Positions 7,810 through 59,763 of a stretch of DNA of 64,000 bases are shown here, piece after piece. Positions within the stretch are counted from its first letter, which is position 1. Each line of letters starts with the position of its first letter. Made by a program: the position numbers and the translations under genes. The notes under the pieces are model-generated. The model saw only the letters and a list, made by a program, of their open reading frames with translations. It was not told the origin of the DNA and made no database searches. Origin of the DNA: Clytia hemisphaerica (Eukaryota > Cnidaria > Hydrozoa > Leptothecata > Clytiidae); assembly GCA_902728285.1 (NCBI GenBank), contig CACVBU010000259.1:62001-126000 (forward strand), given 5' to 3'.

Positions 7810-8330
7810 TGTCGCGCCATACTTTTGTTTCTTTCCATTGTTTCTTACTTAATCTTGCGTTTGAGAAATGAGTTTTTTGCTCACTTTTGATCAAAAAGTA
7901 AATCGATTTTCATCTTCTAAAGGTTTTGTTTTGATTGGTCTGATGAATAAATGCTGATGTAGTAAAAACAAGTCAAGTGTGACAAGATTAGAAAAAGGTT
8001 TTGAAAACATGAAAATACATTGAATAAAAAAACATTCCTCGAACAAAAGGACTTTTACTGAGCGGCTGATTTTTAAACTTCAAAATCTTTCAAAATTTCG
8101 AAAATGACGATGAAAAAGATGAAGATGTTTTCTACTTGACCAAAAATTTATACTTTTTTAAAAGTTTGAACTTTGCTAATTTCAAATATATTTTTAGATC
8201 TTTTATATCTTTCTTAGATCAAAAAGTGGGTCCATTCTGCCCGTTTTTGGCCATTCTTATTCCACAGATTTTATCTTTCATCAAGGTTTTTTGAGTGCCC
8301 TTGTAACATGCTTTGATATATATTACTTTC
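7810..8330. other. Non-coding upstream of the ubiquitin-like gene; 3' splice acceptor at its end
   Basis: AT-rich with no ORF. A plausible 3' splice site (ATTACTTTCAG, AG at 8331-8332) ends this stretch. The reading frame of the downstream gene is open back to that AG. Confidence 0.5.
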
Positions 8331-8442
8331 AGGAATAAGTATTAAAAACATAACAATCATATCATACCGCAGTGGGTGTAGTGTGGTAACAGGTGGTGTA
8401 ATTACCAGTTCCCTTCATGTAAACCTTCTGACCAAGAACGAT

Positions 8443-9774
8443 ATGGAGCAACAAATAGAAACTGTACAATCTCCTTTAAAGACTTGGTGCGCGAGTCGAC
8501 CAATGAGGGTTTTTATATTCAATTACCATCAAACAAGAGTTTTTACCTTCACCTTTGATCTATTTCCAACATTGTTAGATATTAAGGACAAGATTCAAGA
8601 AAAAATTGATATTCATCCTGACAATTTGATTCTCTATCAACATCAATTCGATGGTGAACGAGACAACGGTGGTTATATCCGTTGTCTCTTGACAAAACCA
8701 GTGGAAACTTTACAATTTAATAGCAAAGTTAGTGAAACTGTTATGAACTTCATCTTGGTTATTCGTTGCAATGAAAGGAACTACTTTAATAAATTCAATT
8801 TTGAGACTCTTGATGATTTGGAGCTTCCAGTGGTCGGCTCTAAGACACAAATTAAGATCTTAACGATGCAAAGATCAAGTACAATTAAGTCGATCATTGC
8901 CTTAAAATTCAACATTCCCATAAATAACCAAGTATTATTTCACAATGATAAAATATTAGAGCATGATGGACGAATATCTTCTCACTCCTTGTATTTTGCA
9001 ATAACAGGAGATGTGCCACCCGAAGCTGAAAGTTGGTTAAGAGAAAACGACATTTCAACAACCTTAATCTTCAAGTTAAGATTTCTTTCAAAGATTGATT
9101 ATATGAATGTCATGGAGTACCACTCCATCCGGAGCATAAGACAATACATTGAAATTCAATACAAAGTACGCCGTAATGATCAGATTTTATTATTCAAAGG
9201 TGAAGAAATTAGGGAGAACCAATCATTGTTGAGTTTAATGACCAATGGTCCTTTGGATGACTTTCCTTTAAATTTAGTCGTCGTTAATAGACCTTTTACG
9301 GTGAGAGTAAGAAGGGCGTACGAGAGATACTCGAATGAGTTTGGCGTTGAAGTCTTAAATTCAAACACAATTGGTGAAGTCAAAGTGAAGATTGCTGAGA
9401 GAAATGGTATACCATTACAATATGTAAAGATATCTAGTGATGCTGATGGTAAAGAAGAACTTAAAGATGATTCGAAATTAATCGAAGATTGTGGTTTAGA
9501 GCTTTACCCGATAATATGGATGAAGCCTGTCCTACGTATACACGTTACATTTGTCGAATTTCCTATCGAACATTCCACTGATTATGAAATTCTTGAGGAA
9601 CATTCTAAATTGAAGGATGTGATAAAGAAAATAAGGAAAGCTAACGGACTGAAGAAAATCGAAATTAGAGATGCGGACGCTGAGTTGTTAGAGCCGAACG
9701 TTTCATTACTTGATGTGGCTGAAATACACGTCCAGGTTCATAATCCTCTTAAAAAGTCTTGCATTGTAATGTAA
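8443..9774 (+). CDS. Multi-ubiquitin-like-domain protein with C-terminal CaaX box
   Basis: An uninterrupted 443-codon frame from the first in-frame ATG (8443). It is open further upstream to a splice acceptor at 8331-8332, so an upstream exon is possible. Counting from that ATG I see five beta-grasp (ubiquitin-like) segments at about residues 21-109 (starts MRVFIFNYHQ), 135-188, 206-283, 284-360 and 363-433. Each shows a two-strand opening, a helix of the type LLDIKDKIQEK, TIGEVKVKIAER or LKDVIKKIRKA, and an I/L-rich second half. None ends in the GG needed for conjugation, so these should act as binding modules rather than conjugated modifiers. The protein ends KKSCIVM: a CaaX motif with Met at the last place, which in known proteins favours farnesylation, next to a small basic patch. 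Membrane anchoring is therefore inferred. Prenylated ubiquitin folds are known in the single-domain UBL3/MUB family; a five-fold version is not one I recognise. Confidence 0.85.
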   Translation: MEQQIETVQSPLKTWCASRPMRVFIFNYHQTRVFTFTFDLFPTLLDIKDKIQEKIDIHPDNLILYQHQFDGERDNGGYIRCLLTKPVETLQFNSKVSETVMNFILVIRCNERNYFNKFNFETLDDLELPVVGSKTQIKILTMQRSSTIKSIIALKFNIPINNQVLFHNDKILEHDGRISSHSLYFAITGDVPPEAESWLRENDISTTLIFKLRFLSKIDYMNVMEYHSIRSIRQYIEIQYKVRRNDQILLFKGEEIRENQSLLSLMTNGPLDDFPLNLVVVNRPFTVRVRRAYERYSNEFGVEVLNSNTIGEVKVKIAERNGIPLQYVKISSDADGKEELKDDSKLIEDCGLELYPIIWMKPVLRIHVTFVEFPIEHSTDYEILEEHSKLKDVIKKIRKANGLKKIEIRDADAELLEPNVSLLDVAEIHVQVHNPLKKSCIVM

Positions 9775-16579: not shown

Positions 16580-16865
16580 GATTTTTCATATGCGAGTTAC
16601 GAGTTACAAGTTACGAGTTACGAGTTGCATTTAGAACCACGAGTTACGAGTTACTTTTTACGAGTTACGAGTTACGAGTTGCATTTTAACAAAATAAAAT
16701 CGCGAGTTGCGAGTTACGAGTTGCATCTTGACACACAAAATTCGCGAGTTGCAAATTAAAAGTGCGTGTTGCAAATTGAAGGTGCGAGTTGCATATTAAG
16801 TGCGAGTTGCATATCAAAAGTGCGAGCTGCAAATTAAAAGTTCGAGTTGCAAATTAAAATCAAGT
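16580..16865. repeat. Inverted copy of the AACTCGCAC array
   Basis: CGAGTTACGAGTTAC and GCAAATTAAAAGTGCGAGTT units are the reverse complement of the arrays at 905-1165 and 18440-18700. It may be the tail of a reversed relative of the 17345-18720 element. Confidence 0.85.
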
Positions 16866-17344: not shown

Positions 17345-18720
17345 AATTATTGACAGGCTACTTAAGTGTGATACCTGCAAGCTTTATTACACCAAATATT
17401 TTAATTGTACAGATGAATGGGATGCCTTTGATATAAATAGATAAATATTGTCAAGAGGCTTTGGGAAGGGCAGTTTTATAGATACAATTCTAATCAATTA
17501 TTATTATAGAGATTTTGGGCCATCTCTTAAATTTAATCGGATATTTCAATTTGGCACGGGTTTATAGATTTCCAGGCTATATTCTGAGCTGTATTGGACC
17601 ATTTTTGAACTTTTGGATCCTCAGATCCTAAAGTCTTAAATCTAGCGTTAAAACTCAGAGTTAAAACTCTATCCTTCCAACCTAACTTAGAGCACTTCCA
17701 AATCATTTTTAGTTTTGAAAATTCGTGGGGATTTCCCTTTTTTCTAAAATATTACGACCATGATTGTACACGTTTTGCATGTGATCTTATAATTACTGTA
17801 GGTGAAACAACCCCTTACAGCCATCATTCTCAGCATGTTACCTTGTTACTCCCTATTACCCCGTGTTAACCTTTTTAGTAACAACGCATCCAAACCTATT
17901 ACATACCCCCGCCCGGGAGCACTTTTCTCTACAGTTCTTTACACTCATGTAATGTAAATACTTTATGTACATTTTTTTTCTTTCTCCACCAAATATTTGC
18001 TCTTCTTATGTATAATAGTGAGCAGCAATAATCATTTAATCATTTAAAAGGGGGGGGTTCAGGGGGTACCCGATTCCGCAATTCCGCCAATTTTTTCTCC
18101 AATTTCCGTCAAACCGTCTTAAATTAAACCAAAATTCCGTCACCGAAAATTCCTTTGAAATTCAATATTTTTGTCGAAAATTCCGCAAATTTTGAATATC
18201 TTTTACCAATTCCGAAATTCCGCAAATTTTTTTGCTAAATTCCGTTTTTCCGCACTAAAATTGTCTAATTTTCCGTCTCCGTCAGAGAACCCAATTTCCG
18301 TAATTCCGTCTAAATTTTCGCCAAATTCCGCCACTCCGTCCGAAAAAAGGGCCGATTCCGCTCCTCCGCCAACCATGAAACACCCCCCTTAAAAAATATC
18401 ATTCCTTTTATCAATAGAAATTTTCACTCTTACTGACTTTTCGATTTGTAACACGCACTTTTAAGATGCAACTCGCACTTTTAATTTGAAACTCGCACTT
18501 ATAATTTGCAACTCGCACTTTTAATTTGCAACTCGCATTTTCAATTTGCAACTCGCGAATTTTGTGAGTTTAAATGCAACTCGTAACTCGTAACTCGCGA
18601 TTTTATTTTGTTAAAATGCAACTCGTAACTCGTAACTCGTAAAAAGTAACTCGCAACTCGTGGTTCTAAATGCAACTCGTAACTCATAACTCGTAACTCG
18701 CAACTCGTATATTATCATAT
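17345..18720 (+). mobile_element. Dispersed repeat element, copy 2
   Basis: Same organisation as 1-1170: AATTATTGACAGGCTACTTA start, AAGTGTGATACCTGCAAGC block, tandem AACTCGCAC tail (18440-18700) and closing TTATCATATCAC. It is longer because of an insertion at about 18050-18392. No coding capacity. Confidence 0.8.
18050..18392. mobile_element. ATTCCGC-rich insert nested in the dispersed repeat
   Basis: Comparison with copy 1 (near 860-885) shows extra sequence here. It runs from AAAAGGGGGGGGTTC to CACCCCCCTTAAAAA and is filled with degenerate ATTCCGCAAATT units. G-rich and C-rich ends pair. Probably a MITE; target duplication (ATCATTT-like) is imperfect. The ORF at 18171-18392 is its translation. 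Confidence 0.7.
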
Positions 18721-38544: not shown

Positions 38545-39342
38545 TTATTTCGTTCTTGACGTTGATGGTTTTACTGCAGATTTCATTATAGTCTTTGAAG
38601 ATGCTTTCATCTTCTGATTTCTAGCTACTGGAGAACCACTGGATTCTGGTTCCAGAACTTGCTGCATATCCTGTGCCCGATGTATCTTCTTCATACTCTC
38701 AATATTATTTTCGATATCTTTACGGTGTTGGGCTTTAGATTCTTTGTTCACATTGGCACGACTGCTTTGTACGTCCAGATTTACCATTGCAGCTTCACAT
38801 TTTGCTGACCAGTTTTGAAGAGTATCAATGATGGTTTCAATCATCTCTGGCTTTATATCTCGACCAACCACAAAATCAACTTCCAAACGCTTCTCCTTTT
38901 GGTTGATTTTCCCTTGTAAGATATCTGCATATATCGCTTCAATAATCAAGTCTTCCAACTGTCTCAAATTATCAAGTCCTAAGCTACTTTTCAAACTGTC
39001 ATAATAGACAAACTTTGATTTTGAGGCTAGTGTAGCTAGTGTCAAAAGACGTAGCTTTCTTATTTGAGCATCATTCAATTCTGGAAGACTTTCTTTTTTT
39101 TCTTGAAACTCCTTGTAAACACCAAATGCATACAATTGTAGGAGCCTCCAATATTGTGAATGTGTTTCATTGTTTTCCAACTCCTTAATACCATCAAGTT
39201 GAAGTAGTTCTCCAAAAACAAATACATTAGGGGCTTCAGTTACTTGTTGCACTAGTTGTGAAGCAGCAGCTCCTCGAACATTCTTCCCCAATAAGAGAAA
39301 TGGCTCTAGTGGATCAATTGTTTTGGTTTTTTCAGCAATCAT
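38545..39342 (-). CDS. COPS7: COP9 signalosome complex subunit 7, uninterrupted 265-aa ORF
   Basis: The ATG at 39342 gives 265 aa, against about 264-275 aa for human COPS7A/B. The sequence runs co-linear with the human protein from PFLLLGKNVRGAAASQLVQQ through NVFVFGELLQL, RQLEDLIIEAIYADILQGKI (the PCI-domain winged helix), LEVDFVVGRDIKPEM and the basic tail. The PCI domain spans about residues 40-165, with a long helix afterwards (about 170-225). CSN7 is a scaffold of the eight-subunit COP9 signalosome, which removes NEDD8 from cullins. The ORF has no intron, unlike neighbouring FLCN. A 3' splice site (TTTGCAACCTCTCCAG) ends 11 bp before the ATG, so a 5'-UTR intron or trans-splicing is possible. 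Start chosen by alignment to the family's N terminus. Confidence 0.96.
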   Translation of the reverse strand: MIAEKTKTIDPLEPFLLLGKNVRGAAASQLVQQVTEAPNVFVFGELLQLDGIKELENNETHSQYWRLLQLYAFGVYKEFQEKKESLPELNDAQIRKLRLLTLATLASKSKFVYYDSLKSSLGLDNLRQLEDLIIEAIYADILQGKINQKEKRLEVDFVVGRDIKPEMIETIIDTLQNWSAKCEAAMVNLDVQSSRANVNKESKAQHRKDIENNIESMKKIHRAQDMQQVLEPESSGSPVARNQKMKASSKTIMKSAVKPSTSRTK

Positions 39343-39890
39343 ATTTTTCAAACCTGGAGAGGTTGCAAATTAGAACAGATTTTAGTTTAGAGTGCTCCTA
39401 TAAATGTCAGTACCTTTACTGTGGTACAAGCCTTAATCTTTTATTTAATCTTAGTTTTTATATACTCAGCTTTTAGGGGAAGTTGAGAACTAGGGAGCTG
39501 TGCTTTCCACACCTTAGTTCCTGAGTTCTCCAAGCTTTGCTAAAAGTGTTGCGGTGTATGAGAGTTTAATATTTACTCAAACTGGAAAGAAAGTGTGAAA
39601 CAATAATAACTCTTTAAGTGTGTTTTGAAAGTAAAATATTTCTTGTCCAGAAGATTTAAAAAGCATTGTTTGCAGTATCTCATAAAACATCACCCTAGTA
39701 TAATGTTGCTTACTTGTTTAAGAATCAACAAGTAAGGCTGTTAGTGTAAACTAATATAGAGATATTGGACAGTCTAAAGCTAATCTCGACAATTTGGGTA
39801 TTTGCCCCCCCCCCAAAAAAAATGTTTTTCCAAAAGTTAATAGCTTTGAAAAATCTTGTATTAATGGCTTCATTTTGAACATAATCCTTA

Positions 39891-40590
39891 TAGCCCGTCA
39901 GCTAGGACCTAAAAATTCGGTTTTTCGTCTCCGGAATGGGAGTAATCCTAAGGTGGTTTTTTTGTATCCTTAGACATCCTAGTTATGGAAAAAGTTGGTC
40001 GACCAGATCAAATCGGTAGCTTAATATGATTTTTAGGCCCAAATGTGTGGCTCGGTGGTGTGAAATTACAGCAAAAAAATCGCTATTTTGGGGGGTCTGG
40101 CTAGCTTGATTCTGCCATAACTTTTGATCTAATAGTGTTTTGTGCTTGACATTTGGAGGAGTTTTTCATCATTATATGTTAAATTCAATGGCAAAAATTT
40201 TTTTTCAAAAATATGTAGTGGGGACCTACAACCGGCCCTCTGAGGCCGGTGAAGACCTAAAAATGAAATTTTCACACGTGAGCTATATTTTTGAGCGTAT
40301 ATCATGATGAACAGGCCGAAATATCTTGAAAATGCTTTGAAATAGCTCACAAAAGTTCACAAACGTGAAATATATTAAAAAATATTATATACTGGTCCTA
40401 ATTAGTTAAAGGTAAGGAAAGATAGAACTCAAAATTCTCAAAAAATCACTTTTTTAGCATTTTCTATACAAAAAATGTCATATCTTTTCATTGAATGATC
40501 AAAATCACTTGAAGTGTTAAAGAATGTTTTCTTTACTGAACCCAAACTAGAATAAAGGGGTAGGGTCCCAAGACAGGCCCTCAAAGGCGG
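39891..40590 (+). repeat. Left terminal inverted repeat of the Academ-like element
   Basis: About 700 bp, reverse complement of 46581-47271. Shared blocks include CGTCTCCGGAATGGGAGTAA at the outer side and GGGGTAGGGTCCCAAGAC at the inner side. The minus ORF at 40129-40350 and the plus ORF at 46821-47042 are mirror translations of the repeat, not genes. Confidence 0.95.
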
Positions 40591-40981
40591 AATAGGGCTG
40601 CTGGTTAGAGAAAATCACTTCATTTTTATCATAATAATTATCGTCCATTATCTTTTTTTCTTCACAATAATATCACAGCAATTAACACGTTTTATATGCA
40701 GTGCAGTCGATTTTGTAACATGTTTTGTGTGGGAAATACTTTCATATTTTACAATCAAATTATGGTCTCAATATTTATAACTAGTGGCAGTGACAGACTA
40801 ACAACATTACGGTTATGTTTTTCTTGATTGGCTGAATTTTAGACAATTATAATCGATCCACAAAATCTTGGCTTTTCGTGTTTTATTTATAATCGATTAA
40901 AGATACTTTTTATTATTTCAGATTGAAATGAAATTTAATAAATAGATAAAATGGTTAAAACAAGTAAGAAAAGGAAAAAGG

Positions 40982-43900
40982 ATGATGACGAAGATTGGGT
41001 TTCCAGAAGGCAAAAAGAAAAAGGTAGTTGCAAAGAAGAAATCCAAGTACGCAGGTCAATCTTGCTTTATACACATTACGGACTCTAGCGAAGACTTGAC
41101 AAAATTACCCTCTTCTGAATCATGGAAGAAACTGTTGGAAGCCGCTCGAATTCGAAACGATGAAAACGTATTGGAGTTAGAAATTCAACGTACTGCTGAT
41201 GGTGGAAATGATGATTACCCTGATATATTCTATCATTTGAAGTGTAGAAATACATACACCCACTGGAAGACTCTAGATAACATTTTAAAAGTAAGTATAT
41301 TTTAACAACTGACAGTTTGTCACAGAGTTCTTGGTTTAACTAACCCAAGAGAATCCGCAAGTCACCACTGACTTATTTTGAATGATATGAGACAGGGGTA
41401 TAAGAGATGTGATATATTGATTTTCACTAATGGTTTATACTAAATTATATTTCAGAGCACCCAACCACTATTCACCAACGAGAAAACCGATTACGAAAAT
41501 GTTGAAAATGAGCCCCCGAGAAGAAGGTCATCACGTCATAGTTCTGTTGAATCGGGAAGCAGTATTCTTCCAAAAAAGTGTATATTTTGCAAAGCAGACA
41601 AATACGTTTTAAGCAGTAAGACACGAGAGATTCTGACGCCTTGTGTTCAATTACGAGCAGATGATAAAATCAGGACATTGGCTCAGGAAAGATTCGACTC
41701 TGATGTTCTTGCTGTCACAAGCGATGAATTAATAGCAAAGGAAGCCCACTACCACTTTACGTGTTACAGAGATTATGTCCGCATTCGACCAAACGACGAG
41801 AACCAACAAGAACCATGTGGTGACACCGATACTGTTTTTGACGATGGAGATAACGATGACCTTACCGATCTCCTCAACTGTCTGAATGATCTACACCAGA
41901 ACCCGAGATACATCGAATTAAAATTTCTACAATCGTTAGTTAAATCAGAAAGTGGGAAGCGAAACATTCGACGAACCATCGAAAGAAAAACAAACGACTT
42001 CGTTTTTCTCTCTCGTGGTAAAACTATTTTCCTCTACCCATCTTCGTGGGAGAAAGAAGATATAGTGTCAGAATTGTATGAGGCCAAATTGAAACTTGCA
42101 GAAATCGATCAAGCTCAGGAACCAAAAGCGGTTGTTTGTCAAAGTGGCAGTATTATGAGGAAGGAAATAAAAGACATTGACTACACAATGCCATGGCCAC
42201 CTTCTCCTGAGGATATGAATGCCATCGATTTTCAAATACCAGAACATTTGGATTCATTCTTATCAGTCTTACTTTCTGGCAACATCAATTCTCAATCAGA
42301 TCGAGTAAATCGACTCAAACTTTCGTTTGCTCAAGATCTCGTATACGCAGGTATGTCGAACCTTTTAAAATACTTGAACATTGTAGGGATGTTGCTGTTT
42401 AAGAAATTTAAATTCATTTCATGATTTTACAAAATATCTAGTTTCTGCTTTAAACCAAATTATACTATATCAATTTTAGTGCACAACGGAGAGAAACTGA
42501 CACCCAAAAGTTGTTTATTGGCTTGTCAGATCAAAGACTTGACGAACAATGTGGAACTAATACGCACAATGAACAAATTGGGCCACGGGATAAGCTATGA
42601 TGTGGTTCAATCGTTACTGACAGAGGTGGCTTACCAAAAAGTTGACTCAACAGATGGAGAAAAGGTTCAACTTCCGGAAACCACCGAAAAAGAAACGTTT
42701 GCCATGCTTGCTGAAGATAACATTGATCGCCTCGAAGAAACACTATCTGGTATGAAATTAAATTATTCAACAATTCCAAAATCATTTCAAATAACAATAT
42801 CAATACCCTCGGCGTTTTAACATCTTGGATTTCTTTAAAATATCAAAAGAAACCCGTCATGTTATTTATTTTAGGGGAAGGGACGACACACAAAGTTAAT
42901 TCAATCATTATCCAGCCAGACGTGAAGAAAACAATTGAAATCGATGGACGTGGAGGAAGTTTCACAACGGAGCCTGTACATACAAAGCGAAGGTAATTGA
43001 TTTGCAAACGAACATAATGGAATTTCTGAATTGCTCTTGATCTGTTTATGATGATGGATTTCCGTAGTCTGACCGTTTATGTTAAAGCATATTATTTCAG
43101 CAATGAATAAGGCAAATATCTTGTTTCCCTTTTAGATCTTTTAAAAGCACCCCGACGTTGCTCGAAGATTATATTCTTGGAAAAAGGGTTGGGCCAAAGG
43201 CAACCTCAGCTGCCAAAGAAGATTCTTTCGCTGATATCCTCTGTGCCGATCAAGTCCATCTCTATAACACATGGGTAGCTTTAAGAATCCACCAACCAAT
43301 CATGCAACACGTGCCAAGCTGGACAGGCTTCTTTATCAAGATAAGGCAAGATATACCTATAAGACCCAGTCAAGTTGGTTATCTTGATTGTTTGGACGCC
43401 CCCGCCACTGAAATGTCGACGATCTATCACATGCTGGAGCGGGCTATACGAATCAAAGATCAACTCAATGTCAAATCAATCGTTTGTGTTTACGATCAGG
43501 CGATCTATGCTAAAGCGTATCAGATAAAGTGTAAGGAGCCAGAGAAGTTTAAAAGCGTCTTCCTTATGATGGGCACATTCCACATCATTATGACCTTCCT
43601 CGCTGTGTTGGCTACCAGATTCAAAGACGCTGGACTGAAGGATTTAGTCATCCAAAGTGTTCTTGTCGCCGAAGGTTCAGTTGATACAATGTTTTCGGGA
43701 TCACGGGCTTACAAGAGGGCAGTTAGAGCATACAAGATACTGTATGAAGCATTTTCACGTTTGTTACTGGAAAAATTCAAGAAGGAACATCCTAAAACTG
43801 TCAAAGCGTTGTATGACAGCATTGGAAGCAAAACCATCGAAAATTACACCGATGTTGTATCTTCAACGGAAATGCAAGAATATTCCAACAAACTCGTTTC

Positions 43901-46433
43901 ATTCAAAGAAAGTTTGTCTGACAAAGGAGATCTTCCAAAGTTTTGGTTAACCTTTCTTGAAATGTGCGAGCTGCTCTTCAACATAATCTTTGCAACTCGA
44001 AGTGGTCATTGGTCACTCTACCTTGTTTCGCTTAGACAGGCTTTACCTTGGTTCTTTGCATACGACCGTCCAAATTACTCGCGTTACCTAACTGCTCACT
44101 ACCAAGAACTGACACACCTCAAAGAAGATTTTCCTGATATTTACGACGAATTCCAAAGTGGTAACTTCTCCGTCCAACTGTCATCTGATAATCCTTTCGG
44201 AAGAATGGAAGCTGATAAAGTCATCGAAACTACAATCAACAAAGACACAAAGACACCCGGTGGAACAACAGGTATGTGTTTGATTTTAACCAACTACTTT
44301 AAACAATGACTGGAAGACATTGCCTGAAAGCTAGTAGCCTAAAGCAGATTGTAAAAAAATAGTTTTTAAAAGAACTTTGTTTACTGAAAAGTAAAAACTG
44401 TCCATTTTCAGACTTTTATTGATTTATTTTCAGGCTTCAGTACAAACCACGGAGCTGTTCAAAGATGGGTTCTCACTGCAGCATACAGAGCGGAAGTTAG
44501 GAAGCACATGCAGGAGTTTCTTTCCATGTCAAGGAATTCCAAACACCCAGACCTTAGCCCTGCTCGAATCAGACGGGATCAAAAGGATGTAAAGAACGTC
44601 AAAGATACAATTGATTCAATGTTCATCAATCCTTTTGAAGAATGCGATTTGATGAGCTTGACATCTGGTGTTGCACCCACAGAAGAGGTTAAAGATCAAC
44701 TTCTTGATGCTGAAATGCTTGGTGAAAACGCTTTGATGAAATTCCAACAAGAAAGATTACAAAGTAACGAAGTTGACTTCTTCGCAACGTTAAATAGGCT
44801 TAATTTGGGTACTTTCACCAAACTATTGAGGAAAACAGTAAAGATGCCAAATGGTAAAGAAGCTCAGTTCTCAACCCAGAGCAACATTTTTGGCAAGATT
44901 GCATTAATCCAACAATTCCGCCAACTCGACCTCAAAGAAGTATTTCGTTTTCCGCTTGGTCCCGTTCCATGGTCTTTGGCTGAATCCAATGGATCACTAA
45001 ACAAGACAACGAAATCTTCATTGATGCATCATTTGGAAAAAGATGTTGCCCCTCAGCAGAAAGTTGACAAACCATTTGCTGCGATCATCGACGGTATGGC
45101 ATTGGTACGAAAAGTAAAACCAACAGGACACACTTATCAAAGTTATGCAGATCATCTCCTAGCATCGGCCATATCTTCCTCTGGAAATGCATCACGAGTG
45201 GACATCGTTTTTGACGTTTATCGTGACAAATCGATCAAAAATGCAGAAAGAGAGAACCGAGAAAGTGGAAAACTGGAGATCAAGAAAATCATTGGCTCTC
45301 AGAAGATCAAGCAATTCACGTCTCTTTTGTCGAATGGCAAAAACAAGATGGCACTGATTCGATACCTCGCTGAAAGATGGAAAGCCAACCATACATGTAT
45401 TGGGACGACTAATGTGAATGTTGGCTTTGATCAAACCTGTATCAACATTCAGAATGATACAAACGTATCAGAATTGTTCTGTAACCACGAGGAAGCAGAC
45501 ACTCGTTTGATCTTTCACGCCAAGCACATATCCCAAACCTTTGACAAAATTGTAATTCATACCCCAGACACCGATGTCCTGCTAATTGCTCTTGGGCTCG
45601 CCAATAAAATCAACTGCACGCTTTTTATGAAAACCGGCGTAAAGAACAAAGCAAGAATCATCAGTCTGGATGGAATCGTAGAGTCACTGGAAACCAAGTA
45701 TGGAGTCAAAGATACCGTCAACGCATCGAAAGCACTCCTTGGATTACATGGGTTTACTGGCTGTGACACGATCAGCTCATTTGCTGGGAAAGGAAAAGTC
45801 CAGCCAGTGAAAACAATGATGAAAGACCAAGATTACATCAACCTTTTCGCCAACTTTGGAGTGTCACCCGAATTGACGGAGGAGCAGTTCGAGCAAATCC
45901 AGAAATTCGTGTGTGACCTATATGGTCATAAAGAAGACGACACGAACATTGTGCGTTACAAGATGTATGCAGCCAAACATGGTCATCTGGACCCGAAGTC
46001 AATACCTCCGTGTGCTGACAGTCTCAGGCAACACAGTATGAGAGCCTCATACCAGGTTTACATATGGAGGCAATCATTGGAGAGTCATCCAGAAATTCCA
46101 TCTCCTATTGGATTGGGTTGGGATGAAAATGAAGGAGATTTCATCATTTCGTGGAACCATGTCAAACCTGCACCTGACGAGGTGCTTGAAATGATGTTTT
46201 GTACTTGTACAAAAAAATGTGTGGCTGGTTCATGTCCTTGTGTAGACAATTCTTTAAAATGCACAGATGCTTGTACGAAGCAAAATTGTGATAACTTCGT
46301 GGTTTTTGAGTTAAACAACGACGATTTTGATGAGGGGGATGGTTTTGATGAGGAAGTTAGCGATGAGGAAAATGATTTTGAAAGTGAAGAAGAATCAAAT
46401 GAAGATGAAGATTGTGATGAAGTCTTCATTTAA
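40982..46433 (+). CDS. Academ-like transposase: PIN/XPG-like nuclease with Cys8 module, six exons, 1575 aa
   Basis: Exons 40982-41290, 41456-42350, 42480-42749, 42875-42992, 43136-44271 and 44434-46433. Donors are GTAAGT, GTATGT, GTATGA, GTAATT and GTATGT; acceptors end TTTCAG or TTTTAG; all phases join to one open frame. N-terminal part: a Cys/His cluster in exon 1 (CFIHI...YHLKCRNTY) and a second in exon 2 (CIFCKADKY...HYHFTCYRDY), likely zinc-binding. Counting from Met at 44508 in the last exon: D195 (AAIIDGMAL), D236 (IVFDVYRD), E328-D331 (NHEEADTR), D354/D356 (HTPDTDVLLI) and D420 (GFTGCDTISSFAGKGK) form the acidic set and helix-turn-helix-like segment of XPG/FEN-type PIN nucleases. C565-C594 hold eight cysteines (CTCTKKC...CPC...C...C...C). 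The tail is strongly acidic. An upstream ATG at 40951 in another frame reads MVKTSKKRKKDDDED, which looks like a genuine N terminus; a one-base change in the A-rich run near 41005-41025 would link it. Function as transposase is inferred from context. Confidence 0.8.
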
Positions 46434-46580
46434 TGAACTTTTTTATTATTTAAGTGATTTTCTATATTTATTTTATCTACTTGTCTATTATAAACTATAC
46501 TTTGCTTTTGAGACTATTCAAAATATCTCTGAAAACTTGAAAATCGGACCAGGAATAAACATAGCATTTTCGGCCTCAGA

Positions 46581-47271
46581 CGGCGTTTGAGAGCCAGTCT
46601 TGGGACCCTACCCCTTTATTCTAGTTTGGGTTTAGTAAAGAAAACATTCTTTAACACTTCAAGTGATTTTGATCATTCAATGAAAAGATATGACATTTTT
46701 TGTATAGAAAATGCTAAAAAAGTGATTTTTTGAGAATTTTGAGTTCTATCTTTTCTTACCTTTAACTAATTAGGACCAGTATATAATTTTTTTAAATATA
46801 TTTCATGTTAGTGAACTTTTGTGAACTATTTCAAAGCATTTTCCAGATATTTCAGCCAGTTCATCATGATAGACGCTCAAAAATATAGCTTATGTACGAA
46901 AATTTCATTTTTAGGTCTTTGCTGGCCTCGAAGGGCCAGTTGTAGGTCCCCACATCAAATTTTTGAAAAAAAATTTTTGCCATCGAATTTAACATATAAT
47001 GATGAAAAACCCCTCCAAATTTCAAGCACAAAACACTATTAGATCAAAAGTTATAGCAGAATCAAGCTAGCCAGACCCCCCAAAATAGCGATTTTTTTTG
47101 CTGCAATTTCACACCACCGAGCCACACATTTGGGCCTAAAAATTATATTAAGCTACCGATTTGATCTGGTCGACCAACTTTTTCCATAACTAGGATGTCT
47201 AAGGATACCAAAAAACCACTTTAGGATTACTCCCATTCCGGAGACGAAAATTTCACCTATCTGACCGACTA
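46581..47271 (-). repeat. Right terminal inverted repeat of the Academ-like element
   Basis: About 691 bp. Its inner edge (CGGCGTTTGAGAGCCAGTC) starts about 150 bp after the transposase stop codon, so it may also supply 3'-end signals. Confidence 0.95.
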
Positions 47272-47274
47272 TTA

Positions 47275-47968
47275 TAATTAGATGCGTTTTCAAGCAATCT
47301 AAACACCTAAAATTGCGAAATTTTTTCCCTCGGTTTAATATTTCTCACTTTGCCCCCTCAAAATGAAAATGCTTCGGATGACCCTGCTGCTTATATTTAT
47401 GATGAATATTCACCAAACTGTGAAAGGTTGAGGCTTTTCCTGAAAATATTTGCGCTGGAATGGTAGGAAAGGCCAGACGCGAGTCTCACTTTTTTAACGT
47501 ATTCTGTATTTTTTTTTAAATAAAGAAAGTGTCATAAAATGTCATCTGTTGATGGAAATGACCTGAAATTTTTGCAGTCGTTCCCTTAATGCCAATGATT
47601 AGTTGGCTAGAAGAGAAGATCAACCCATATCTTGACAAGAATTAACCTTTAGAGCCCCTAAGGTTTGATTGGCTTTCAAAATCTGCTCCCCACCAGAGTT
47701 CATGATTTTTAGGGGCCAAGTTTTGCTTTATAGCCTATTTTTGAGTAGACAGGAGACCCGTCCTGTATTTTCATAATCTGATGTATAAAGGATGGGTATA
47801 TATGACCTGTGAGGCAAATTTCTGCCTCAAAAATTTACAGTGGGAAATTCGAATTTAGCGCAGTCTCACTCTCAGCCCATACCATGCTATATTTTTTGCC
47901 ATCAGTATATAGAATATCATAGCGGATCTCAAGGCTAATCTTTAGGACACTGTATTTTCAAAACTAAG
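47275..47968. other. Non-coding, nothing recognised
   Basis: No exon-like ORF or clear inverted repeat. Confidence 0.5.
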
Positions 47969-48839: not shown

Positions 48840-50600
48840 ACACCACTTTGTGGCCAAGACAAGACCAAGATTGTACCCTCACTTTGTTAATGTAACTGAT
48901 GTGAGCTTTTGCCCTCTGACACGCTTCAACCAAGAAGTTTTATTTTTCATATTCCACGCTTACTCAACAAACTCATCTTACATAAAATCAACCTGCTCAC
49001 TTGATAGACTTGCTACTAGTCTTGAGTGGTCAAATCGAGATCAATCCTGGCCCACCTGTCAAATTTCCATGTGGTGAATGTTCTTCAGCTGTCAGATGGG
49101 GACAAAATGCAATTGCCTGTGACACTTGTAATCGCTGGTTCCATGCATACTGCATCCAAATGAACAGTGTAATGTATGATATCTATCAGACAAACAAATG
49201 CAGACAAACAAAGCATTCCTAAAGGAGCTTGGTAATGAAATTGCACCTGGACTAACATTGGTAATGCAGGCATCCGTACTGCAGTCAATGACTCCAAAGG
49301 ACTGGCGTCATGCCTTGGTTGCCCCAGTCTTCAAACCAGGGAAAACAGACCGAGCCAAAGCTGAAAACTACAAGCCTACAAGCCTAACATCAGTATCATG
49401 CAAGATATTTGAGCATATTCTTCACAGTAATATCATCTCCCACCTTGACAAAAACAACATACTAACTGATACACAACATGGCTTTCGGAAAAATCGTTCA
49501 TGTGAATCTCAGCTTTTACTCACCATTAATGACCTTGCAAAATCGCTTAATGAAGGAAGTCAAATCGATTCCATCTCGCTTGATTTCCCAAAGCATTTGA
49601 CAAGGTAGACCATGACAAACTGTGCATTAAGCTTGATCACTACGGAATAAGACGTAATACTCTCTCCTGGATTAGAAATTACCTTGCAAACAGAACGCAA
49701 ACTGTAGTTGTTAACAGCAAGAGCTCAGACAAAGCCATGGTATATCTGGTGTTCCCCAAGGGACAGTATTGGGACCACTTCTATTTCTAGTGTACATAAA
49801 CGATTTACCATTGAGTGTGAACTCTCAAATTCGTCTTTTTGCGAATGATGCTCTATTATACAGAAAAATTGAATCAGTCAATGACGCTTATCAACTTCAA
49901 CATGATCTAAATAATCTGATTGAGCGGGAAAGGCATTGGTCCATGGAATTCAATACAGACAAATGTTAGGTCCTCAGAGTCACCAATAAGCGCATAATCA
50001 TCCTATCTGACTATTCCATGCATAACCAGATCCTTGAGCTTGTTGACTCAGCAAAATACCTTGGCGTATTTATACACAAAAAGTTATCTTGGAATACCTA
50101 TGCCAACTACACCTTGAAAAAAGCCAACCAAATCAGATTCTTCCTCCAGCGTAACCTGCGTACATGTAGTAACCAAGTTTAATCAAGCTCCAAGCTTATC
50201 GTACCTATGTGAGGCTGATTCTTGAATACGCATCAGTTGTCTGGGATCCTCATGCTTGGTCCAACGCAAGGCATCCAGATTTATATGTAATGATTGAAGA
50301 TATTGCAGTAGTCCAACCTCCATGATTCGTAATCTTAACCTTAACACCCTCCAGAAAAGACGGCTTGAAACTAAACTGAACTACATGCATAAAATTCTAC
50401 ACGGTCAAATTGCTTGTTTATCTTCCCTTGTATGTCATCTTGTACCGCTAACTTAAAAATTATACCAATAAATGCACGAATCCAGTCATATGAATACACC
50501 TATGTCCCCTCAACAATTAGGTTGTGGAATGACTTACCAACCCATATCGCCAATGAAGAAGACCCTGACAAATTTAGCCTTAGCATTTTAAAATACGTTC
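48840..50600 (+). pseudogene. Degraded non-LTR retrotransposon (CR1/L2-like): PHD finger plus reverse transcriptase
   Basis: 49001-49190 reads LSGQIEINPGPPVKFPCGEC then CDTCNRWFHAYC, the PHD-type finger found ahead of the endonuclease in CR1/L2-type elements. At about 49198 it jumps straight into the reverse transcriptase (PKDWRHALVAPVFKPGKTD, FEHILHSNIISHLD, QHGFRKNRSCESQL), so the endonuclease is deleted. Frame changes occur near 49600 and 49740 and a stop near 49967. The catalytic box reads FAND instead of F/YADD. Later parts (YLGVFIHKKLSW, ILEYASVVWDPH) reach about 50250. Not functional. Confidence 0.88.
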
Positions 50601-55707: not shown

Positions 55708-56397
55708 TAGTAGGGGAAATTTGTTCGTTTTTTTGAGGTCGCTCTATTTTTTTAGTCAAAGCACTTGTTATACATTTTTGGAAAGCTAAGGGGTAGGGAA
55801 ATCAAAATAACTTGGGTGCCAATTTTATTTCGGACACTTTGGTGTGATTTTTGGACAAATACGACGGTCTCGGGCAAAAATCATAGGGTGAAAAGTTAAT
55901 GAAAATTTCAGCTTGAGAAAACGGAGACCTGTTGTATATTTTTGGAAAGCTCTCAAAAAATTAAGATTAGTGATATATTGCGAGTATAGGTGATTTCAGT
56001 ACCTAACTCGAGATATTGAGCTTCCGAAAGCGCAAAAACTGGACAAAACAGCTGTTTCTGGCTGAAAAACACTGAAAAACACTGTTTTTAAGGATTAATA
56101 TCTCGAGTTAGGTAAAGAAATCACCTATACTCGCAATATATCACTAATCTTAATTTTTTGAGAGCTTTCCAAAAATATACAACAGGTCTCCGTTTTCTCA
56201 AGCTGAAATTTTCATTAATTTTTCACCCTATGATTTTTGCTCGAGACCGTCGCATTTGTCCGAAAATCACACCAAAGTGTCCGAAACAAAATTGGCACCC
56301 AAGTTATTTTGATTCCCCTACCCCTTAGCTTTCCAAAAATGTATAACAAGTGCTTTGACTAAAAAAATCGAGCGATTTTACAAATTTCCCCCTACTA
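55708..56397. mobile_element. 690-bp foldback element with TAG...CTA ends and CTT duplication
   Basis: Two arms of roughly 330 bp pair along almost their whole length around a centre near 56060. Ends TAGTAGGGG / CCCCCTACTA. CTT is duplicated at 55705-55707 and 56398-56400. It interrupts the endonuclease frame exactly, which confirms the borders. TAG ends plus a 3-bp duplication are shared with the Academ-like element at 39891-47271. Confidence 0.9.
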
Positions 56398-57669
56398 CTT
56401 GTCATGAATCAGATTGGTCATCGAAAGAACATTATCCTACTGGGAGATATAAATATTGACATGCTCAAAGATAGCTCACTTGCTGCAACATTTAAACGCA
56501 TGCTTTATACATACAACTTGAAAAATATTATAAAAGATCCGACACGCATCACACCAACACCAACATCCTCCACTTTAATTGATCTAGCAATTCTCTCAAA
56601 CCCTTCTTCAGTTGCAATTTCTGGAAGCTTCAATACATGTATATCAGATCATAACCTTGTTTTTGCAAACCTTGATATTGCCCTCAGAAGGCAAAATGCA
56701 CCCAAGTTGATCACAGTTAGTAACTATAAGGATATTAATATGAACAATCTGAGATATGATCTTGAAAGCGCACCTTGGAGCTTGATCGACTTGTTTGATG
56801 ATCCTGATGATGTTAAGGCAGGCAACCTTAAGTTCTCAAAATCTCAGAGTCCCAAACAACACTCCCACCATTTTTCACAGTGTCATTTTCTGTGTCTTCA
56901 TTTGTTTTTGTCATGTTTGTTTACATTTTTTGGTTTGGTCTGCAATTTACACACTTTTCTACCACTTTTGGTATTTTTCTTTAGTTTGTGAAATTTATAT
57001 GTTTGGTCAGTATTTTATTCATTAATTTATTTCATTTTTTGTCAAACTAATTTTTGGTCTGTAATTTATGCATCTGTTCTGCAGAATGCATAAATAGAGG
57101 TCATTTCAGCCACTTGCCTCACTTCAACAGAGACATTCAAGGAGTCAACATCAAATTAGTCTCTTATCAATGCAAACTTAGTCACTTTTCATACACTTGG
57201 TGTTAGTAACACACCCTGTGTACATGCTGCCTACACAGCTTTCACATTCAGGCCAGCTGGTGAGTTTTTCTCTTTTTGCTTTCCCTTCCTTTGCCTTTTG
57301 CTTTCTTACAGTGGCTATTAGGTTTAAGATACATTTTTCATTACTTATTTTTCTACTAGCATTCAATTATACTTAGCTTACACATAGAACTTTGTCATTC
57401 AAACTTCAATTTTACTTTATTTTCATATATACATTAGGACTTAGTTTTTGTTCAATTTTCTATTTCAGTTTGAACATATTCAATGCACACTACAGTGTTA
57501 ACCGTTACGAACACGGCTTCCGCCTACCTTCATTGACTCCTATCCTGTTTGCTCATCTCTGACCCCACATTCAAACAGAGCCGCTATCAACCGTTATCAA
57601 CATAAACTGATGCATCACCACATCACGCACTGTTCAATCAACATTCACCGACCAACCGCTGTTTGGTAG

Positions 57670-59763
57670 ATGAGTTATAACTTGAGACCGAAAAATCGTT
57701 TCAACTTCAAGACTTATGGAAACACTGGGAATAAGACTCAACTCAACTCAACCGTAAGTGATACAACTCATTTGTCGTCCGACTCAACTCACTTCTCGTC
57801 CGACTCAACTCACTTGTCGTCCGACTCAACTCACTTGTCGTCCGACTCAACTCACTTGTCGTCCGACTCAACTCACTTGTCGTCCGACTCAAACTCACTT
57901 GTCGTCCGACTCAACTCACTTGTCGTCCGACTCAACTCACTTGTCGTCCGACTCAACTCACTTGTCGTCCGACTCAACTCACTTGTCGTCCGACTCAACT
58001 CACTTGTCGTCCGACTCAACTCACTTGTCGTCCGACTCAACTCACTTGTCGTCCGACTCAACTCACTTGTCGTCCGACTCAACTCACTTGTCGTCCGACT
58101 CAACTCACTTGTCGTCCGACTCAACTCGTCGTCCGACTCACTCACGTGTCGTCCGACCAACTTCAAACCGTCGTCCGACCAACTTCAACCGTCGTCCGAC
58201 CAACTTCAACTGTCGTCCGACCAACTTCAACTGTCGTCCGACCAACTTCAACTGTCGTCCGACCAACTTCAACCGTCGTCCGACCAACTTCAACCGTCGT
58301 CCGACCAACTTCAACCGTCGTCCGACCAAGTCATCCAAATGGACGGTAAACCAGAAGTTAAAGCATTGTTGTTCTCGCTCATTGGCTATCAAGATGAAAT
58401 CCTTGACATCATTCAAGACTTTGCTCCACCTCTAATCAAACAATCGACTGATGTCATGAAACGTTGCATCACTGACATCCAGGCGCTCCGCAAGAAGTAC
58501 AGAGATAAAGATAGAGAGCTACGTTTCTTACTCCAAGACCATCGAGACTCTCTGGAAAACTATGAACAAAAATATGGTAAGCCATACTCTTCAACAATTA
58601 ATGAGGTTGCTACCTATGTCCAAATTATTCAGAAACAAATTCAAGATATTGATCTTACCACTACCAAAGAGACTCAATCTGTCAATTCTCAAAAATCAAC
58701 CTTTATCGCTGAAGAAGCTACACGGGCAATAGAATATCTCACCAAAGTCTTTACCGTCACCATCACAACTGTTACAAATGATGACTTGAAATTACGCAAA
58801 AAGCAACTACAATCACGCATGTCAGAAGTTAGCACTATCTCAGAAAACCTAAAGGAACTGATTGAACTCAACACCAGTGCAGCAGTCTATGGTCCAATCA
58901 AGACAAACTACGATACACTTCACAAATCTGCTCAACAGTATGAAAAGACCATAAACGATGAAATGAAATCTCGAGAACTTGATAAACTTGACTCTTTCAA
59001 AAAGGTTCAACTAAATATCAAATTGCCCAAATTCATTGGTTACGAAGCTGAGATTGATATTTACACATTCATTGACAACTTCAAAAAACTTTATTCTGAT
59101 CACGTACCAACATCCTTACAACCAGACTTTGTGAAAAACAATCACCTTGGAAAACATGCGTTTGAACTTGTTAAGAACGTAAATGACATCGATGAAATCT
59201 GGCTTCGACTCAAGGACGCCTTTGGAGACCGAAAGCTACTACTTTCGCAAAAGCTCGCAACCCTCACATCCATTGATATGAAGGTTAAAGACTCAACCAA
59301 GATCACAGAATCGCTCAGCAAAATCGTCAATACCATGCGAGATTTGATGCTTCTAGCCTCAACGCATCACATCGAGAATGAATTATACTATGGGGACGCA
59401 CTTACACACCTCTCAAACAAGTTGGGCCAAAGCAGACTGATGAGATGGCTTACATACAGCTGTGACAATCCGAGAGAGGGAAAATATAAATGGAAGCTCA
59501 TGATCGACTTTTTGGAGAAGGAGATCAAAATCCAACAACAAGTTACCATCCTTCACTCAAATGTTGGCACCACCCCTGGGAAAGACAAGGATAAAGATGG
59601 AAGGCAGAAAGGAAGAGGATCATCCTACTTTGGTCAACAACCAAGACAACCAACACCACCTCAACAACCATCATTGTCAACATGCTTCATTTGTGGTGCC
59701 AATGATCACGTTCCGACCAATGGCCCGAAGAACACCAAGCTGATACCAATACTTCTCGTGTAA
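57670..59763 (+). CDS. BEL/Pao gag-like protein with expanded repeat region
   Basis: 697 codons from the ATG at 57670. Residues about 30-215 are encoded by the 21-bp minisatellite. About 215-440 is coiled-coil-like. About 440-640 contains the gag core typical of BEL/Pao (KLPKFIGYEAEIDIYTFIDN, LRLKDAFGDRKLLL). A basic Gln/Pro-rich linker leads to a zinc-knuckle start (CFICGANDHVPTNG) before the stop. The usual continuation of this family lies in the next frame just downstream, so the stop follows a frame change near 59741-59750. Old or damaged copy, or a programmed shift. Confidence 0.9.
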   Translation: MSYNLRPKNRFNFKTYGNTGNKTQLNSTVSDTTHLSSDSTHFSSDSTHLSSDSTHLSSDSTHLSSDSTHLSSDSNSLVVRLNSLVVRLNSLVVRLNSLVVRLNSLVVRLNSLVVRLNSLVVRLNSLVVRLNSLVVRLNSLVVRLNSLVVRLNSSSDSLTCRPTNFKPSSDQLQPSSDQLQLSSDQLQLSSDQLQLSSDQLQPSSDQLQPSSDQLQPSSDQVIQMDGKPEVKALLFSLIGYQDEILDIIQDFAPPLIKQSTDVMKRCITDIQALRKKYRDKDRELRFLLQDHRDSLENYEQKYGKPYSSTINEVATYVQIIQKQIQDIDLTTTKETQSVNSQKSTFIAEEATRAIEYLTKVFTVTITTVTNDDLKLRKKQLQSRMSEVSTISENLKELIELNTSAAVYGPIKTNYDTLHKSAQQYEKTINDEMKSRELDKLDSFKKVQLNIKLPKFIGYEAEIDIYTFIDNFKKLYSDHVPTSLQPDFVKNNHLGKHAFELVKNVNDIDEIWLRLKDAFGDRKLLLSQKLATLTSIDMKVKDSTKITESLSKIVNTMRDLMLLASTHHIENELYYGDALTHLSNKLGQSRLMRWLTYSCDNPREGKYKWKLMIDFLEKEIKIQQQVTILHSNVGTTPGKDKDKDGRQKGRGSSYFGQQPRQPTPPQQPSLSTCFICGANDHVPTNGPKNTKLIPILLV
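57773..58334. repeat. 21-bp coding minisatellite, two sub-families (~17 and ~8 units)
   Basis: First array: TCAACTCACTTGTCGTCCGAC, about 17 units to 58143. Second array: TCGTCCGACCAACTTCAACCG (C/T variants), about 8 units from 58149. The arrays share the TCGTCCGAC core. Single-base indels (extra A near 57891; a shortened unit near 58120; extra A near 58165) move the gag frame between repeat phases. Several other frames on both strands are open across it. Confidence 0.95.

Follow-up and report, generated by a model that had tools for sequence, protein, structure and literature searches.

A probable AcademX-type transposon in Clytia hemisphaerica encoding a putative DDE/D core and an EXO1/FEN1-like nuclease in one protein

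Which part of a transposon protein moves the DNA when that protein also carries a nuclease of the DNA-repair type? The question is raised by an element that spans positions 39891-47271 (7,381 bp) of a 64,000-nucleotide stretch of the genome of the hydrozoan Clytia hemisphaerica (here the window; contig C184, positions 62001-126000). An earlier note on this DNA had described an Academ-like transposon and implied that its XPG-like nuclease takes the place of a conventional transposase. Our analysis indicates that the element is very probably a recent copy of an Academ-type cut-and-paste DNA transposon of the AcademX lineage, whose single protein, from one spliced gene, combines a putative DDE/D core, an EXO1/FEN1-type nuclease and a cluster of eight cysteines (Cys8).

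Borders, copies and insertion site

The element is bounded by two terminal inverted repeats (TIRs), the arms of which (39922-40588 and 46583-47250) are 94.6% identical across 668 columns. An outer tip, TAG(C/T)C(C/G)GTCAG, extends the arms to 39891 and 47271, past a stretch with 10 gapped columns. The left TIR, with the tip TAGCCCGTCAG, thus occupies 39891-40588 on the forward strand, and the right TIR, with the tip TAGTCGGTCAG, 46583-47271 on the reverse strand, as placed by the arm alignment and by comparing borders across copies. A TTA target-site duplication flanks the element on both sides (39888-39890 and 47272-47274); the left junction is placed within about 1 nt by the element-free repeats described below. 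Both the inverted repeats of about 700 bp and the flanking TTA of the earlier note were recovered.

We compared the element with its own genome (417 Mb, 951 contigs). The left TIR has at least 41 matches, and eleven places among them were taken for comparison. Two are full-length copies on other contigs, C339 (99.16% identical to the window over 7,406 columns) and C338 (98.51% over 7,383 columns), which start and end at the same bases as the window copy. C295, C332 and C522 hold partial matches, and C113, C780, C340, C545, C544 and C787 hold members of families about 70% alike to the element. Perfect 3-bp duplications flank four of the six two-ended copies: TTA in the window, ACA in C339, TAT in C338 and TAG in C780. 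Since the full copies end at the same bases and carry matching 3-bp duplications, we regard the borders as right, and 3 bp is the rule for duplication length, given perfect duplications at three loci besides that of the window. The other full copies and TTA-like duplications that the earlier note had anticipated are thus present.

To locate element-free sites, the window flanks were joined with one TTA removed and used as a genome query. They matched 41 places, two of which are the flanks themselves; among the 39 others, the matches in C472 and the second in C250 stop short of the junction, and the 37 analyzed were selected for spanning it. As these matches across the junction show, the element sits within a repeat, roughly 200 bp long, that is dispersed through the genome (about 39796-39890 and 47275-47375 in the window). 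These sister repeats confirm the insertion site that empty copies had been expected to reveal, but not a clean TTA duplication: the junction is one base shorter than the joined flanks in 34 of 37 and of the same length in none, while the other three have extra bases just downstream (L097) or are gapped at the junction (L110, L117). The simplest reading is that the host repeat copy had one extra base before the insertion. The joined C339 flanks gave no clear element-free site in the genome, the non-self matches lying to the right of the junction, with C317 reaching furthest across it, by 9 bases.

Across copies, TIR distances are 1.9-2.4% between left arms and 0.7-2.8% between right arms, and 3.6-5.4% between left and right, with 12 fixed left/right sites (outer 30 columns excluded). 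Left and right tips also differ in the 70% families of C113 and C780. The same-side resemblance across copies indicates that the left and right ends are distinct and maintained. For this reason we rejected dating of the insertion from the 5% divergence between the arms: the arm difference is ancestral, and identical arms at the time of insertion would lead one to expect about 5 stops in the gene, with a probability of 0.003 or 0.0075 (two rates) for finding none.

Within each arm, the tip motifs recur 348 bp inward, at 39906/40254 on the left (GACCTAAAAAT) and 46896/47244 on the right (ACGAAAATTTCA), as possible candidate binding sites for the transposase. Short motifs within the TIRs repeat at 348 and 366 bp. 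A TIR built of two tandem units of about 350 bp was rejected, as the half-alignments are no better than shuffles (in four comparisons, 280, 41, 109 and 301 of 500 shuffles scored as well).

One spliced gene under purifying selection

Six forward-strand exons join in phase into 1575 codons with a single terminal stop, as the earlier note had read them: exon 1 (40982-41290), exon 2 (41456-42350), exon 3 (42480-42749), exon 4 (42875-42992), exon 5 (43136-44271) and exon 6 (44434-46433). Exon 2 holds a zinc-finger-like stretch (C145, C148 ... YHFTC ending at C206) that may bind zinc, and exon 5 a putative DDE/D transposase core, DUF6589-like, with the candidate catalytic residues D651 and E895. 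From motif reading, alignments and profiles, exon 6 comprises the end of this core, an EXO1/FEN1-like PIN nuclease (about residues 1120-1400), the Cys8 cluster (1499-1528), an acidic tail and the stop. Each of the five introns has GT..AG ends, a length of 125-165 bp and a GC content of 25-32%, against 38-44% in the exons, and the longest open stretches (681, 400 and 326 codons) compare with a maximum of 252 among 500 first-order Markov shuffles. Relatives that lack introns align continuously and so support the joins: a 1,241-codon open frame in C309 (L040), 30% identical, aligns unbroken with residues 145-1373, and relatives in C192, C604 and C649 span residues 630-1403 without intron 5, a test that covers the protein apart from exon 1 and the far C-terminus. 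A duplicated zinc finger across exons 1 and 2 was considered and rejected, 88 of 1000 shuffles scoring as high.

The gene is less complete than the "apparently intact" of the earlier note. Alignment with, and reading of, the two sister copies place the probable native start codon at 40951-40953 (forward strand), from which exon 1 is open for 113 codons in both sisters; in the window the same ATG meets a stop at codon 46, its frame not being that of the long gene. The exon 1 frame of the window is shifted against both sisters by a length difference of 1 nt near 41000, so the window copy is not fully intact and the ATG at 40982 is probably not the native start. Translation from 40982 could nevertheless yield nearly the entire protein, minus its lysine-rich first residues. 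The C338 copy has one 1-nt difference in exon 6, and none of the three full-length copies in the assembly has a fully open gene. The C339 copy (326813-334214) shows an odd excess of microduplications: against 9 substitutions it has six insertions in exons, each of 2-8 bp, and five of the six are exact tandem duplications.

These 9 substitutions between the window and C339 fall in 4,727 exon sites, with 0 in 722 intron sites; against C338 there are 47 in 4,727 exon sites and 11 in 721 intron sites. The copy is recent, as had been proposed. The ratio of nonsynonymous to synonymous rates (dN/dS) ranges from 0.05 to 0.33 over the five pairs for which it could be computed. It is 0.135 between the window and C338, 0.10 (NG86) or 0.16 (YN00) when exon 5 is compared with a relative in C38, 0.18 for the nuclease parts of two close relatives, and 0.054 between two further relatives over residues 630-1403, where synonymous sites are saturated. 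The protein is under purifying selection.

Domains, mechanism and rival explanations

The PIN/XPG-type acidic set noticed earlier in the last exon is present as D1129, D1170, E1262/E1263, D1265, D1288, D1290 and D1354. We aligned the domain twice, first in 11 rows over residues 1110-1403 (one of 11 nuclease stretches, L029, was excluded for a stop) and then in 20 rows, six from the first alignment and 14 more diverse; these represent fewer than 20 independent lines owing to the near-duplicate pairs L040/L049, L070/L071 and L073/L077. A profile of the first alignment found four matches in the PDB (E<=10), all EXO1 (E 0.14-0.89). The proposed comparison with FEN1/XPG structures came out most clearly with the second, which found eight, the first four being EXO1 (E 0.0022-0.0078) with human EXO1 on top. 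Two collinear blocks, VFD..S.K..ER.R and SGCD.S...G.G, align with the human protein. Columns D61, Y63, K69, R76, K105, D179, D181, H239, G243 and D245 of the 20-row alignment are invariant, and D20, E153, E154, A155 and D156 are among those at least 90% conserved. On the EXO1 alignment and general family knowledge, we take these to correspond to the catalytic residues of FEN1/EXO1, presumably including the Lys and Arg positions. With both blocks and the acidic set, the domain is like EXO1/FEN1/XPG nucleases and reads as an active enzyme of this type, differing from them in being part of a 1575-residue transposon protein and in its weak overall similarity. The XPG family of Pfam was found in none of the 11 rows of the first alignment, and exon 6 as a single sequence found two PDB matches only (E 0.24 and 0.64). 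Exon 6 had no relatives in viral and prokaryotic collections, and scans with degenerate motifs of viral contigs (0 and 8 stretches) and genome contigs (9) yielded, on tblastn and frame reading, short chance matches only.

The central part of the protein resembles DUF6589. In an alignment of 11 sequences, for which nine of 19 transposase stretches were left out for stops, seven match Pfam DUF6589 (E up to 1, best 6.3e-6). D651, H680, D891 and E895 are identical in all nine covering sequences and E735 in nine of ten, and we infer that D651 and E895 are two of three catalytic residues. The D618 column, read by eye, is acidic in 5 of 6 sequences and is an uncertain candidate for the first acidic residue. 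The profile of this part found one unrelated PDB match only (E=0.28), the 24 cytochrome b5 chains matched by exon 5 alone (E from 0.021 up) were taken as chance, and an NCBIfam scan of three protein pieces gave no families. The DUF6589-like middle fits papers that, in the parts accessible to us, list Academ among the DDD/E superfamilies (PMC9587614) and use DDE/D profiles of Academ as one of the DDE/D superfamilies (PMC10294476). Together with the four kept residues, this speaks against the claim that XPG and Cys8 parts stand instead of an RNase-H-fold transposase. DUF6589 was not mentioned in the literature searched.

The eight cysteines, at 1499, 1501, 1505, 1510, 1512, 1519, 1523 and 1528, are regularly spaced as described (CxC-x3-C-x4-C-x-C-x6-C-x3-C-x4-C), and the cluster is a feature that we take to belong to AcademX, the earlier note having named it for Academ elements. 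The spacing up to the seventh cysteine resembles the tesmin/TSO1-like CXC domain (Pfam TCR), whose consensus we take to have nine cysteines where eight are found here; the TCR score is below its cut-off (E=0.017, best 15.8 bits, cut-off 23.5). One relative (L080) has ten cysteines, nine in CXC-like spacing, and Pfam reports no TCR in it. The Cys8 part may bind DNA.

Besides the short junctions of the sister repeats, several results weigh against the assembled picture. The match to EXO1 is a weak one: the top four hits are versions of one protein, and the lower ones include unrelated proteins (a cytochrome at E=0.056, EXO1 again at 0.14, S100-A9 at 0.74 and 0.87). Single-sequence AlphaFold models have a predicted local distance difference test score (pLDDT) of 34 for the nuclease and a mean of 45 for exon 5, and the window protein itself scores below the DUF6589 cut-off (E=0.0015, 17.8 bits against 27). 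The dN/dS between the window and C339 is 0.33, from the 9 changes only, and no dS was obtained for the nuclease part against C38. Two of the six two-ended copies, C295 (TTT/GAT) and C113 (GGA/TTA), have mismatched 3-bp flanks, one tip being changed in each and the border set by eye. Finally, the Academ assignment is made from domain content, in part by general knowledge of the group, and from duplication length; as far as could be told on that basis, this is a new family of the AcademX type, a kind already known.

As far as the accessible text of PMC10045372 goes (citing Kojima 2020), AcademX encodes a nuclease and has target-site duplications of 3 or 4 bp, AcademH encodes a helicase and has duplications of 9 or 10 bp, and the difference in length seems tied to the encoded enzymes. 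Our element is like this AcademX in its TIRs with borders common to other copies, its encoded nuclease and its 3-bp duplication, and differs from AcademH, as reported there, in enzyme and duplication length. Presumably it shares its transposase core with AcademH, DUF6589 as the common part being a guess. The reported pattern fits an accessory role for the nuclease, which is probably not the transposase.

The protein, a single chain of about 1,585 residues from one spliced gene, would run from the N-terminal zinc-finger-like part through the DDE/D core in mid-protein and the EXO1/FEN1-type PIN nuclease to the Cys8 cluster. The middle part would act as the DDE/D catalyst, excising the element at its TAG...CTA ends and inserting it, with a stagger of 3 bp, into target DNA. 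The nuclease, if active, would trim 5' ends or flaps, either at the donor ends or where insertion at a new site leaves gaps and flaps. We tentatively propose, at slightly less than even chances, that AcademX is a two-nuclease machine in one chain, with a DDE/D transposase and an active flap nuclease required for transposition, perhaps processing 5' ends or flaps to give the 3-bp stagger; exchange for a helicase would give AcademH with 9-10 bp, and the transposase core of Academ would then be what Pfam lists as DUF6589.

The strictly conserved catalytic-type residues, and a middle part whose low-confidence model demonstrates no RNase-H fold, could instead mean that the EXO1/XPG-like PIN nuclease is the transposase itself and the middle part a DNA-binding or dimerization scaffold, as the earlier note implied. 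We consider this unlikely, given that D651 and E895 are unchanged in all nine sequences covering them, that Academ is placed among DDD/E and DDE/D superfamilies in the accessible parts of PMC9587614 and PMC10294476, and that AcademH is reported in that of PMC10045372 with a helicase in the nuclease's place, so that the nuclease is no general feature of the superfamily. Less likely again is a separate, related superfamily with an independent XPG fusion, an idea left room by an Academ assignment made on domain content and duplication length. Against it stand the Cys8 cluster and the great length of the protein, both of which we take to be Academ features. Duplication length and nuclease also agree with AcademX, in the accessible text of PMC10045372. 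That purifying selection and five introns mark a domesticated host gene between chance repeats can be practically dismissed, contradicted as it is by the TIR at each end, the near-identical full copies in C339 and C338, the element-free sites and the genome's 120 scored matches to exon 5 (one element may account for several), all of which bear out the mobile element first proposed.

Surroundings and significance

An apparently intronless open frame for COP9 signalosome subunit 7 (38545-39369, reverse strand; PDB CSN7B E=1.4e-55; Pfam CSN7 and PCI) has its likely start about 550 bp from the element, which thus lies in the upstream region of this gene. Elsewhere in the window, a 485-codon frame at 8317-9774 (forward strand) encodes ubiquitin-like domains (two stretches matching Pfam ubiquitin, E=9.9e-19), and a 21-bp unit repeated 27 times at 57764-58333, open in three frames, lies within a 697-codon frame whose scanned part (58399-59760) matched no Pfam family. 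A 20-bp satellite unit, ATTTGCAACTCGCACTTTTA, occurs at 915-1067, 16744-16859 and 18444-18556, in one of them as the reverse complement. Fragments like the reverse transcriptase and endonuclease of long interspersed nuclear elements lie at 49180-49608 and 56359-56991 (Pfam RVT_1 E=7e-6 and Exo_endo_phos_2 E=2e-5, both just below cut-off).

A literature search, covering mostly papers open without subscription, showed among the matches listed neither a bench study of an Academ transposon nor functional work on an Academ nuclease. In one genome, three full-length copies whose ends are exact and many diverse relatives now present an EXO1/FEN1-type nuclease under purifying selection inside a transposon protein. 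They suggest a role for Pfam DUF6589, and make testable the idea that a nuclease of the DNA-repair type is a working component of the transposon that encodes it.

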